From an uncultured Ignavibacteria bacterium (GTDB lineage: Bacteria; Bacteroidota; Ignavibacteria; Tepidaquicellales; OLB5): a DNA stretch of 45,858 nucleotides. Shown here piece by piece: positions 13,205 through 45,858 of the stretch (positions within the stretch are counted from its first letter, which is position 1; each line of letters starts with the position of its first letter). The position numbers were made by a program, and so were the translations under genes. Where the stretch lies: positions 1 through 45,858 of the forward strand of contig CALMYL010000016.1 of NCBI GenBank assembly GCA_937873695.1, read 5' to 3'. The notes under the pieces were generated by a model. The model saw only the letters and a list, made by a program, of their open reading frames with translations. It ran no database searches and was not told the DNA's origin.

Positions 13205-13561
13205 CTAATGCTCACCGGGGTTAACCAATTGAAACCAGTTTCCGTCCGGATCTGTAAATGTAAGGCATCTGTCAGAGCCATCAGTACCCTTGAACATTAA
13301 TCCTTTTTTCAGAAACAATGCTCCGGTTTCTTCCAGATCGTTTGTATAAAGTACAAATGCCGTACGGGCAGACTGGTAATTGGGTGCACTTTCAGGCGGT
13401 TTACCGGGTCTGAGAAGGATCGTGTAACTTCCTGATCTCAGCCAAACGAATTTTTCGTGCTGAATAGTTTCAAGCTCAAACCCTAATACGCTGATGTAAA
13501 AATCCTTTGATACCAGGGGATCGTTCACAAAAAGTTCAATGTGCCCAAATTTGAATTCCAT
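13205..13561 (-). CDS. Glyoxalase/bleomycin-resistance (VOC) superfamily protein
   Basis: The protein has 118 residues, a single VOC module of two beta-alpha-beta-beta-beta repeats. It begins KFGHIELFVNDPLVSKDFYI (residues 4-23), with His7 at the usual first metal position. It ends with FTDPDGNWFQLVNPG, the family's C-terminal signature. Members include metal-dependent lyases, dioxygenases and antibiotic-binding proteins; the substrate cannot be told from sequence. It lies downstream of the PKS/methyltransferase pair in the same orientation with a 29-bp gap, so it could be a third gene of that unit. Confidence 0.85.
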   Translation of the reverse strand: MEFKFGHIELFVNDPLVSKDFYISVLGFELETIQHEKFVWLRSGSYTILLRPGKPPESAPNYQSARTAFVLYTNDLEETGALFLKKGLMFKGTDGSDRCLTFTDPDGNWFQLVNPGEH

Positions 13562-13590: not shown

Positions 13591-14094
13591 TCAGTATAGT
13601 TCTTCAAGCGCCTTTTCTTCAATTTCAATTCTGCGTTTAAGCAGAAACAGGTTTAAAGAAGAAAAAATCTCGGCAGTGATAAAACAAGAGAACATTAAAG
13701 GAATTACAGCCAGTTCAGTTATTACAGCCATGTAATTAGGATGCTTAAAATATTTATATGGACCATACTTAACTAATTTACTTCCGGGTACTATAATAAT
13801 CCTGGTATTCCACATGCTGCCAAGTGAAGTAATTGCCCAGTATCTTAAGCACTGCGCTAAAATGAATAATACAAGGAATATCACCCAGAATTCATTTAAT
13901 GTATGTTTTAAAAAAAAGTATTCTGCAATTAAGGAAATGAAAAACATTACATGCATAATAACAATTACTGAATAACCTTTTTTATCATATTCAATTCCGC
14001 CTGCAGCAAGACTCTTCTTCTCATTCCTTTTGGCAATAACAAGCTCAACCAGCCGCTGAAGTATTACAAACCCGATTACTATATAAAAGAGCAT
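13591..14094 (-). CDS. ICMT-family membrane methyltransferase paired with type III PKS
   Basis: The protein has 167 residues with hydrophobic helices at about 1-18, 42-62, 68-85 and 124-150. GPYKYFKHPNYMAVITE at 111-127 is the isoprenylcysteine carboxyl methyltransferase family motif (SAM-binding HPxY...E). It begins one base after the PKS stop (TGA-T-ATG), so translation is coupled. In Bacillus subtilis the equivalent gene bpsB (ypbQ) follows the type III PKS bpsA and O-methylates its alkylpyrone products. A similar methyltransferase (SrsB) acts on phenolic lipids in Streptomyces. By analogy this enzyme probably methylates the neighbouring PKS product in the membrane. That role is inferred. 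Confidence 0.85.
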   Translation of the reverse strand: MLFYIVIGFVILQRLVELVIAKRNEKKSLAAGGIEYDKKGYSVIVIMHVMFFISLIAEYFFLKHTLNEFWVIFLVLFILAQCLRYWAITSLGSMWNTRIIIVPGSKLVKYGPYKYFKHPNYMAVITELAVIPLMFSCFITAEIFSSLNLFLLKRRIEIEEKALEELY

Positions 14095-14095
14095 A

Positions 14096-15166
14096 TCAGG
14101 AAGTTTTAAATAGTACTAATTCAGAACTGAAGCCGGGACCAAGTGAAGATATCAGTCCATACTCCCCCGCTTTTGTACTCTGAACATTTTTCAGGAACTC
14201 ATCCAGTACGTAAATTACACTCGGCGATGACATGTTGCCATGTTCTTTCAATATCTTGTGTGATATATTCAGAGTACCCTGCTTAAGTCCCAATGATTCT
14301 TCATAAGCATTTATTACTTTCAATCCCCCAGGATGGGTGATATAATGCTTAATGTCCTCAATTGACATATTGTGCATTGAAAGCAATTCAGCAATATTTG
14401 GTTTAACATTCTCTTTCACAATTGTTGGTATATCCCTGCTGAATACCACGCTGAATCCGGTATCAACAATATCCCAGCCCATAACATCAAGTGAATTATC
14501 ATAAATTGTGGATAGCGAAGCAACCAGTTCAGGGCAATTTTCATTTGCCGAAAGCTCATTTTCATCACCGGCAATCAAAACGCATGCGCAGCCATCACCA
14601 AAGAGAGAAGCAGCGACTATATTACTCTTTGAAATGTCATCTTTCTGGAAAGTCAGACTGCACAGCTCAACAGCAACAACAAGCACATTTTCCTTTGGGT
14701 AAGCTTTTGTCAGATCCATTGCGCGGCTTATACCTGCCGCGCCTCCGGCGCAGCCGAGTCCCCACAGGGGAAGGCGTTTTATGTGACTGTTAAACCCAAG
14801 TTCATTGAACAACCGTGCGTCTAAGGTTGGAGTCATAACTCCCGTACTTGTAACATAAATCATATTATCAATTTTAGCGGGATTGATATTAACTCCAGCC
14901 AGGCATTCCACTATTGCCTGCTTTGCAAGTTCTAAAGAGACTTCAGTGAAGATCTCGCTCTGCTCCTTAAAAGTATGTTCTTTAGCAAGCCACTCAGGTT
15001 TTACAGATATATGCCTTTGGGTGATTTCGGAGTTATCAAAAACACTTATCAGTCTTTCAATTTCAAGTCCGCTGCCTGAGAAAAGATTATAAATAAAATT
15101 CTTGATCTCGCTTTGGGGCAGTATATACGGTGCATCAGAAGTGGCTGTAGAAATTATTTTTGGCAT
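14096..15166 (-). CDS. Type III polyketide synthase (chalcone/stilbene synthase family)
   Basis: The protein has 356 residues, normal for the family. It has a thiolase fold with the full catalytic triad: Cys139 in LWGLGCAGGAAGISRA, His278 in YITHPGGLKV, and Asn311 in EHGNMSSPSVIYVL. The C-terminal SSLGPGFSSE matches the GFGPG-like loop. Bacterial members extend fatty acyl starters with malonyl-CoA to alkylpyrones, alkylresorcinols or phloroglucinol. No dedicated starter-loading gene is present. Coupling to an ICMT-like methyltransferase favours membrane alkylpyrone or phenolic lipid synthesis of the BpsA-BpsB type. The precise product is not predictable. Confidence 0.93.
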   Translation of the reverse strand: MPKIISTATSDAPYILPQSEIKNFIYNLFSGSGLEIERLISVFDNSEITQRHISVKPEWLAKEHTFKEQSEIFTEVSLELAKQAIVECLAGVNINPAKIDNMIYVTSTGVMTPTLDARLFNELGFNSHIKRLPLWGLGCAGGAAGISRAMDLTKAYPKENVLVVAVELCSLTFQKDDISKSNIVAASLFGDGCACVLIAGDENELSANENCPELVASLSTIYDNSLDVMGWDIVDTGFSVVFSRDIPTIVKENVKPNIAELLSMHNMSIEDIKHYITHPGGLKVINAYEESLGLKQGTLNISHKILKEHGNMSSPSVIYVLDEFLKNVQSTKAGEYGLISSLGPGFSSELVLFKTS

Positions 15167-15250
15167 TAAGTTACTTTAGATCTGCAATATTTATATAGAT
15201 AACATTTTGTACAATGAAACAGTTCTGAATATGACAGCTAAATAAAAATA

Positions 15251-15276
15251 AAGACACGCTTTTAAAGGCGTGTCTT
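15251..15276 (-). terminator. Intrinsic terminator after the heme-barrel gene
   Basis: AAGACACGC (15251-15259) and GCGTGTCTT (15268-15276) form a perfect 9-bp stem with an eight-base loop. On the minus strand an AT-rich tract with five Ts follows. It lies 27 bases past the stop of the barrel gene (15303). It could also limit transcription towards the PKS operon. Confidence 0.75.
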
Positions 15277-15302
15277 CGTTAAAGCGTGAATAACTTTTGC
15301 TG

Positions 15303-16520
15303 TTAGAAATAAAACTTGATAACTGTCTGGAATTCATCATCCTTGAAATCTGTGAAGTTAGTTGGTTCGGGGTCACCCTTGCCGTTGCGCACTAAACGGA
15401 AGATGCTTTCAACTTCAAGTCCGCTTAAAGGATAGAACACTGCCCCAAAGCTGTAACGCTGGCGTTCGGTTTCGCTGTTCTTTAAGCCAAGCGCGTTATC
15501 ATAATTTTCGTATTGAACTTTCAGCTCAACACCCTTTGAAATCCTGATATCAATTTCACCGAAGATAGTGCGGAAATCTGAGCGCGTTGCCATTGAATCC
15601 CTTATATCAAGCCTGTTATAAGCAAGCTCGCCAATAATTGCGACTCTTTCAAACAAGCCGATTGATAAAAATCCCGCTGCCATCTGGCGAAGCGCGTTGA
15701 TATTATTTGCGGGGTCATACTTAAACGGATTGCTCAAAAATGAACCGCCAATACCGAAAGTATATTTAGTTTTTTTGCTTGCCCAGCGGAAATCACCCGA
15801 AACAGTAACCTGTTTCTGATTATCAAAATCAAAGCTGTTGTTGCGCTGGTTGTTTATGTTCACACTTGAACCGTTTGAAAATCCCGCTGAGAGTGTGAAG
15901 AAACTGGGAGCTATACCGACTTCTATTCCCGCATCACTCGCGTAGGGAGTGTACATATCGTTAAATATCCTGTTATATGCTCTGTGCTCGGGAATCTTTA
16001 CGCCGAAGTTCGGAATAAACCTGCCTGCTTTGAAATAAAGCCCTGCAGGTAGATTTGATACCATACCGTAAATTTCATATTTGGTTGGGAGCGGATTTGG
16101 ACCGTATGTGTTTGGTATATATAAACCCGGCGCTACCATTAAATTGATATACTTATTCAGCTGGGCGTTTACATACAGGTCCCCCTGCATCTGGAAAAAT
16201 GAATTGAAGTTCGGATTTCCTTCCCCGGTCTGGTCATCAATGAATACCATCCTCATATCTGAACCCATTGAAATGCTTTTTGTAAGCTGTGGATCGATTT
16301 CAGTTGTTTTGTTTGCCTTTTCCCAGAATTTGAAATACAGGTTATCTTTGCCGTACTTCACGCCGTAAAGATTCCTCATTCCACCGCCGGTTGGATTGAC
16401 ATGGCAGCTCTGGCATTTTTCACCCGTATAAGCCGCAAACTTAGGATAAGAATACAAAGCGGAAGTTAAAACGAAGAACAATACGAAAAATCCTGAAGCA
16501 AATCGAAGTTTTGTTTTCAT
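15303..16520 (-). CDS. Outer-membrane beta-barrel with N-terminal single heme-c motif
   Basis: The protein has 405 residues. It has a signal peptide (about 1-24, ending ALYSYP), then KCQSCHVNPTGGGMRN at 35-50. CQSCH (36-40) is a canonical c-type heme attachment motif. The remaining 350 residues alternate aromatic and polar residues in amphipathic strands, each about 10-12 residues, and end in VIKFYF, a typical last barrel strand with terminal Phe. This suggests a porin of 14-18 strands with a tethered heme at the periplasmic side. Similar heme-tagged barrels occur in several FCB and deltaproteobacterial genomes and may serve extracellular electron transfer or respiration. Role here is inferred. 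It is divergent from the ABC exporter and closed by its own terminator. Confidence 0.78.
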   Translation of the reverse strand: MKTKLRFASGFFVLFFVLTSALYSYPKFAAYTGEKCQSCHVNPTGGGMRNLYGVKYGKDNLYFKFWEKANKTTEIDPQLTKSISMGSDMRMVFIDDQTGEGNPNFNSFFQMQGDLYVNAQLNKYINLMVAPGLYIPNTYGPNPLPTKYEIYGMVSNLPAGLYFKAGRFIPNFGVKIPEHRAYNRIFNDMYTPYASDAGIEVGIAPSFFTLSAGFSNGSSVNINNQRNNSFDFDNQKQVTVSGDFRWASKKTKYTFGIGGSFLSNPFKYDPANNINALRQMAAGFLSIGLFERVAIIGELAYNRLDIRDSMATRSDFRTIFGEIDIRISKGVELKVQYENYDNALGLKNSETERQRYSFGAVFYPLSGLEVESIFRLVRNGKGDPEPTNFTDFKDDEFQTVIKFYF

Positions 16521-44642: not shown

Positions 44643-45858
44643 TTACTTTAGAAGCACCATCTTCTTGCTATCCACAAATTTATTACCATTCGGTTCTTCG
44701 GCATCTATGCGGTAGAAGTAAACACCTGACGCATAATTCATGGCATTAAAATCTACAATGTATGAACCTGCGGTTTTAAGCACATTGTTCACAAGCCGTT
44801 TAACTTCTCTGCCCAGTATATCATAAATTACGATCTTTACCTTTGAATCTCGTGGAAGATCATAATTTATCTTTGTTACGGGATTGAACGGATTTGGATA
44901 ATTCTGCGATAGCCTGAATACTAATGGAACATTCTTCGGTTCATTGCCTTTACTGCTGGTGTTTGAACCAAATACCATCCGGATATCCTCTGATACTATC
45001 CTGACATGTTCAATTATGCTCTTTGGCTTTTCAATCTTTACCACCTGCTTTAATGATTTCATCTGTGAAAGCTCTTTTGAAGCGTTCACATCACCAAGCT
45101 CTGACTTCTCTTCAAGCTTCTTTATCTTCGTTTCATCATCATTCTTTGATATTTCTATCGCTGTATTTATCGATTTACGGATATCCAGCCTTTGCTCTTT
45201 GGTGAAAGGATTTTTATCGTCGCCATCGGCTTCGTTTTGGAGTGCATTGACTATGTCAATGCTTAACCGGCTATTATCATCACGCACCGACACAGTCGGT
45301 GCACTCCCAAAAGAACCGCCCTGCGGCACAAGTAAACTTGTTGCCATGTAATCCCATCTTGCGATAAGTCCTTCGTAGCTGTATGGATTCTGGTTTATTA
45401 TCTGCTGAAATCCAGCCAACGCCTGTGAGTATTCACGCATCCTTACTTTACACTTTAGTATGTAATAATTGGCGCGCTTTACAAGCGATGTATTGCTTTG
45501 ATGGTTCAGTATCAGGTTTTCGTAGAATACTTTAAGAGTATTTGCCGCATTGTAAGACGTATCACTTGCTACAGTTGCTAAAAATAGCTTTGATACGGCA
45601 AATATGCTCTGAATGCTATCTGGATATGTATTGATTAAATCCAGACATTTTGTTTTTGCCTGTGTATAATTGCGGTAACGCATAAGGACGCTGATGGAAT
45701 CGTACATTTGTTTAGGTGTGGATAATACAAACACACCCCGCCCAAGAAACTGCGAAGCAGTTTCGAAGTCCCGCCTTGGCGGGATGGCGGTCTTTTTATT
45801 ATCGACCCCCTCCCCCTGCGGGTACTCCCCCTCAACAAGATAGTATGTTAAAAAGTGC
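44643..45858 (-). CDS. T9SS-sorted protein with TPR-like repeats, C-terminal part
   Basis: The frame is open from the stop at 44643 to the window edge, about 405 codons, with the N-terminus outside. The C-terminal 85 residues form a type IX secretion sorting domain (RLSQNYPNPFNPVTKINYDL, then ILGREVKRLV, SGVYFYRI, SKKMVLLK), which directs export to the cell surface. The middle has a tetratricopeptide-like helical stretch (YRNYTQAKTKCLDLINTYPD, REYSQALAGFQQIINQNPY). Two in-frame palindrome-derived segments break it: GSAPTVSVRDDNSRLSIDIV, and PPRRDFETASQFLG nearer the edge. A GTG at 45734 is a possible but unconvincing start, since the open frame continues upstream. Function of the whole is unknown. 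Confidence 0.85.
   Translation of the reverse strand, partial: HFLTYYLVEGEYPQGEGVDNKKTAIPPRRDFETASQFLGRGVFVLSTPKQMYDSISVLMRYRNYTQAKTKCLDLINTYPDSIQSIFAVSKLFLATVASDTSYNAANTLKVFYENLILNHQSNTSLVKRANYYILKCKVRMREYSQALAGFQQIINQNPYSYEGLIARWDYMATSLLVPQGGSFGSAPTVSVRDDNSRLSIDIVNALQNEADGDDKNPFTKEQRLDIRKSINTAIEISKNDDETKIKKLEEKSELGDVNASKELSQMKSLKQVVKIEKPKSIIEHVRIVSEDIRMVFGSNTSSKGNEPKNVPLVFRLSQNYPNPFNPVTKINYDLPRDSKVKIVIYDILGREVKRLVNNVLKTAGSYIVDFNAMNYASGVYFYRIDAEEPNGNKFVDSKKMVLLK
45244..45302. repeat. Two family-D palindromes inside a coding region
   Basis: GCATTGAC/GTCAATGC (45244-45251 with 45255-45262) and GCACCGAC/GTCGGTGC (45284-45291 with 45295-45302) lie in opposite flanking orientation within the T9SS-sorted frame. 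They keep it open and encode LSIDIVNA and APTVSV-like residues. Each has the CACTCC flank seen in the intergenic D copies. Compared with copies at 4122 and 4774, stem pairs change together. Confidence 0.8.
45747..45784. repeat. Double-hairpin element (family H) inside the open frame
   Basis: AAACTGC/GCAGTTT (45747-45753 with 45757-45763), linker CGAAG, TCCCGCC/GGCGGGA (45769-45775 with 45778-45784). It matches the 44605-44642 element in layout and linker (TTTCGAAGTCCCGC), with a changed first stem. It lies in frame in the T9SS-sorted gene (PPRRDFETASQFLG). Further upstream, 45806-45835 (CCCCTCCCCCTGCGGGTAC) resembles the right half of the 1810-1930 element. Confidence 0.75.

Follow-up and report, generated by a model that had tools for sequence, protein, structure and literature searches.

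The window analyzed here, a stretch of 45,858 nucleotides from an uncultured Ignavibacteria bacterium, very probably carries a bpsA-bpsB-type operon, in which a long-chain alkylpyrone, possibly accompanied by some resorcinol, would be made by a type III polyketide synthase (PKS) and then O-methylated by a methyltransferase (MT) of the isoprenylcysteine carboxylmethyltransferase (ICMT) family. We report the gene pair, its catalytic residues, its clade, its conserved linkage, and the predicted folds of both proteins.

Organization of the locus

The window is one of the contigs of a 3.78 Mb assembly that is 99.9% complete and encodes a single type III PKS, together with three further ICMT-family genes, all of which are much weaker members of the family than the MT of the window. 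The closest named loci are found in Ignavibacteria MAGs, with PKS identities of 85 and 74%. Transcription runs along the minus strand in the order PKS, MT, and then a gene for a small VOC-family protein (Table 1). The original prediction placed the MT start one base after the PKS stop, and the ORF coordinates confirmed this, with the TGA of the PKS (14098-14096) and the ATG of the MT (14094-14092) separated by exactly one base (14095). A terminator-like hairpin located between an upstream 405-aa gene and the PKS suggests that the pair is probably transcribed separately, as a unit of its own.

The 405-aa protein (15303-16520), for which no Pfam family scored above the cut-off, contains one CxxCH heme-binding motif (KCQSCHVNP) near its N-terminus and shares 81-99% identity across same-genus loci.

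Table 1. Coordinates of the gene pair and adjoining features in the window
Feature	Position	Strand	Evidence
Type III PKS, BpsA clade, 356 aa	14096..15166	-	Pfam, PDB match, tree, AlphaFold (AF2) model
BpsB-like ICMT-family integral membrane O-methyltransferase (MT), 167 aa (predicted)	13591..14094	-	PF04140, alignment, AF2 model
VOC-family small protein ORF	13205-13561	-	Glyoxalase PF00903, 48 bits
Terminator-like hairpin, 10 pairs and a T-rich tail	15250..15277	-	Consensus scan; alone no evidence of function

The pair encodes a type III PKS and an ICMT-fold methyltransferase

The PKS matched both chalcone/stilbene synthase families in Pfam (Chal_sti_synt_N and Chal_sti_synt_C, PF00195/PF02797; 81 and 76 bits), and its best solved relatives by sequence in the PDB were Mycobacterium tuberculosis PKS11 (E 4.6e-62) and CylI. 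ArsB and ArsC, for which a switch between Trp281 (ArsB) and Gly284 (ArsC) is described (PMC6274091), were absent among the PDB matches listed for this protein. The original prediction of an intact Cys139-His278-Asn311 triad was borne out, as these residues line up with PKS11 in its catalytic region and are invariant in all relatives compared, that is, in 13 members of the class Ignavibacteria and in 34 PKS-MT pairs spanning phyla. An AF2 model of the PKS (pLDDT 92.8) superimposed on PKS11 with a Z score of 52.1 (1.6 Å over 351 residues) and on CylI with a Z score of 51.8 (1.4 Å over 352 residues). As judged from sequence and modeled structure, the protein is a type III PKS with a predicted thiolase fold and a Cys-His-Asn triad. 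The identity of 3,5-dihydroxyphenylacetyl-CoA synthase (DpgA) was considered and rejected, because the score of 200.7 bits with the NCBIfam equivalog NF042429 fell short of its cut-off (425).

The MT belongs to the ICMT family (PF04140, 100 bits) and contains the motifs GPYKYFKHPNY and RRIEIEE. In an alignment of 28 sequences, 19 residues were invariant, among them H118, P119, Y121, E127, N148, R155, and E159, which include the HP-Y, N, and R..E positions of the family. The AF2 model (pLDDT 93.9) matched the archaeal Ma-ICMT (4a2n) with a Z score of 16.6 (2.6 Å over 164 residues), with steroid reductases scoring lower (Z 9.5). Conservation and modeling thus both identify the MT as a predicted helical membrane methyltransferase of the ICMT fold with conserved HPxY, Asn, and R..E(E). 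Function as a protein-S-isoprenylcysteine O-methyltransferase was rejected, since the MT scored 28.5 bits with the NCBIfam equivalog NF040696, whose cut-off is 160.

The PKS falls within a clade that includes Bacillales enzymes

A maximum-likelihood tree of 57 proteins placed the window PKS inside a clade of 43 rows (support 97/98) comprising PKSs from Bacillales, Dadabacteria, Kapaibacteria, Latescibacterota, Zixiibacteriota, Acidobacteria, Clostridia, and Alphaproteobacteria. PKS11, CylI, PKS18, ARAS2, the plant enzymes, a Streptomyces enzyme annotated as PhlD, and a Planctomycetota PKS of the hierridin-operon (hid) type all fell outside this clade. Some rows are long, and outside the clade deep placements are unsure. 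One clade member, from Peribacillus, lies in an xpt-pbuX-PKS-MT locus, where genes for xanthine phosphoribosyltransferase and xanthine permease directly precede it, as they do bpsAB in B. subtilis. The window PKS and the Bacillales PKSs from the xpt-pbuX-bpsAB locus therefore group together with support, and the MT of the window lies directly downstream of the PKS on the same strand. Identity to the Bacillales members compared was 41-49% for PKSs of the Ignavibacteria branch, and identity to the Bacillota members compared was 43-52% for the MT.

The original prediction drew an analogy to BpsA-BpsB, which the tree and the conserved linkage described below strengthen, placing the window pair in the same clade and the same family of operons. 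The phylogeny that it proposed as a check is answered in part: the window PKS grouped with the Bacillales enzymes and not with the PhlD-annotated or plant enzymes, and B. subtilis BpsA itself, SrsA, and ArsB/C lay outside the sample.

Bacillales-like PKS-MT pairs were also present in two records labeled as Gammaproteobacteria, a Stenotrophomonas rhizophila plasmid (CP065518.1), whose PKS groups within Bacillales in the tree, and Pseudomonas sp. ISL-84; these may represent either transfer or mislabeled assemblies.

Predicted product of the pathway

In B. subtilis, BpsA produces triketide pyrones, and co-expression of bpsB yields the corresponding methyl ethers (PMC4901931; PMC5686519). We infer the substrate, product, and methylation site in the window as follows. 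Cys139 of the PKS would be loaded from a long-chain fatty acyl-CoA (or acyl-ACP), the chain would be extended by malonyl-CoA with the help of His278 and Asn311, and lactonization would release it as a 4-hydroxy-6-alkyl-2-pyrone, possibly together with a smaller amount of a tetraketide resorcinol. The ICMT-fold MT is expected to sit in the membrane, where the lipid would partition, and to methylate the ring hydroxyl with SAM as the donor, yielding an alkylpyrone methyl ether.

The mode of cyclization is unreadable from sequence, because the folds of PKS11 (pyrone) and CylI (resorcinol) tie in Z score. It is conceivable, though unlikely, that the main product is instead an alkylresorcinol or alkylresorcylic acid formed by C2-C7 aldol closure, with the MT forming a methyl ether of the resorcinol, in the way that SrsB of Streptomyces acts on alkylresorcylic acid. 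CylI, a resorcinol-type enzyme, is as near in fold as PKS11, small amounts of alkylresorcinol are formed by B. subtilis BpsA (PMC5686519), and methylation of alkylresorcylic acid by SrsB is named in the title of a study cited by PMC5916927. However, triketide pyrones are the main products of the clade's characterized member (PMC4901931), PMC8086630 describes the enzymes of the Bacillus clade as pyrone formers, and CylI lies outside the BpsA clade, as does PKS11. We therefore favor the alkylpyrone methyl ether as the main product.

Linkage and co-occurrence of the PKS and the MT

The MT was found directly downstream of the PKS in 77 of the 80 nearest loci (73 by ORF and HMM search and 4 more by tblastn), and this conserved order implies that the pairing in the window is far from chance. 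Across 59 related genomes, 26 encode both proteins and 28 neither, with 3 encoding only the PKS and 2 only the MT (Fisher p 3e-11, uncorrected for kinship). The PKS-only genomes all belong to one genus, and both MT-only matches lie at contig ends. In one genus (g12), the two genes are unlinked, on different contigs, and both are retained. Pairwise distances for the PKS and the MT were correlated across 34 pairs (r 0.72; 0 of 5000 permutations), a correlation to which shared species history contributes.

These patterns bear on whether the MT acts on some lipid or phenol other than the PKS product and is merely co-transcribed with it. Enzymes of the ICMT fold have varied substrates, and the three PKS-only genomes show that the PKS can be kept without the MT, but the linkage across many phyla, the retention of both genes where they are unlinked, and the correlated distances, as well as the methylation of BpsA products upon co-expression of bpsB (PMC4901931), make this quite improbable. 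Methylation of the PKS product by the MT is the reading that we retain.

The VOC gene is best read as a neighbor

The VOC ORF starts 29 bp past the MT stop, and the original prediction suggested that its product could carry out a third step, modifying the ring. The same order on the same strand is kept in six other same-genus genomes that carry the pair on one contig, and in a seventh (G012) across a contig break. However, two genomes of the genus (G003 and G010; 92 and 99% complete) contain the 405-aa gene, the VOC gene, a 163-aa gene, and TrmO in an unbroken row without PKS or MT, one (G004) has neither the pair nor the VOC gene, and in another (G013) an intact pair adjoins a VOC gene split between two frames. 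Outside the family, moreover, other genes follow the pair, such as ORFs resembling AtuA ferredoxin-like proteins. A three-gene pathway is thus largely refuted and highly improbable; among close relatives the pair and the VOC gene vary in presence independently of one another, and since they are gained and lost separately, the VOC gene is best read as a neighbor rather than a pathway step.

Within the genus, the small region flanked by the 405-aa gene on one side and by the 163-aa gene and TrmO on the other is variable (13205-13561 in the window; loci L135, L136, L143, and L138 in G003, G010, G004, and G013, respectively). In another family of the order, an ORF of 103-104 aa follows the pair in most loci (L013, L015, L017-L022, and L029), and the two such ORFs tested were AtuA ferredoxin-like (PF23544). 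Elsewhere in the window, the C-terminus of the ORF at 44643-45734 (LSQNYPNPFNPVTKINYDLP...) resembles a type IX secretion sorting domain, and part of this ORF is matched by proteins encoded beside the PKS in some relatives (L013, L014, L019, and L025).

Distribution among bacteria

Annotated pairs of a PKS and an ICMT-family protein occur on plasmids of Phyllobacterium and Sulfitobacter (Alphaproteobacteria), with a similar arrangement in Marinovum, and PKS-MT pairs are also found in Dadabacteria, Kapaibacteria, Latescibacterota, and others. The pair is therefore widespread among bacteria, and the locus in the window belongs to a known system, not a new one; the initial view that such a pair is remarkable in a Gram-negative lineage does not hold. 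Among related lipids, alkylresorcinols are established in Planctomycetota (PMC10896814), and Myxococcota share conserved clusters for alkylpyrones (PMC12224551). A literature search of partial coverage found no paper on a type III PKS or PKS-MT pair from Ignavibacteria, nor any published product measurement for enzymes of this branch.

The host range of the Bacillus pair is thus much wider than in the literature found, and the pair leads one to predict a lipid for Ignavibacteria and for further groups of which little has been cultured; in Ignavibacteria the product may plausibly be a membrane lipid that the class was not known to make. Beyond these two points and the removal of the VOC gene as a false lead, the locus amounts to ordinary genome annotation. 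As for the physiological role, a broader reading, which we hold somewhat less probable than its opposite, is that BpsAB is a widespread lipid module of many non-sporulating Gram-negative phyla with a general role in the membrane or in signaling that the Bacillus sporulation phenotype has masked, and that the Ignavibacteria branch makes an undescribed methylated lipid.

Comparison with known systems

By description, the SrsA-SrsB-SrsC system of Streptomyces griseus likewise combines a type III PKS with an O-methyltransferase acting on a phenolic lipid, but the window locus is without a hydroxylase. The hidABC (hierridin) operons of cyanobacteria and Planctomycetota also pair a type III PKS with a methyltransferase, in their case with alkylresorcinol chemistry (PMC10896814). 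Unlike the window, the one hid operon inspected contains a methyltransferase-domain protein and an FAD oxidoreductase, with no ICMT, in the order MT-FAD-PKS, and the hid-type PKS lies elsewhere in the tree. M. tuberculosis PKS11 and PKS18 provide the closest solved folds that make alkylpyrones, with PKS11 the enzyme matched at Z 52.1 above, yet they fall outside the BpsA clade and share only 32 and 29-30% identity, respectively, with the window PKS.

Members of the class Ignavibacteria are not known to sporulate. The sporulation and biofilm roles reported for the Bacillus pair (PMC5686519) are thus not simply transferable to the window, and, unlike B. subtilis bpsAB, the window pair does not lie beside xpt-pbuX. 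It nevertheless shares with BpsA-BpsB (BcsA-YpbQ) the gene order and near-overlap of the two genes, a PKS within the Bacillales clade (41-49% identity), and an MT of the same family (43-52%).
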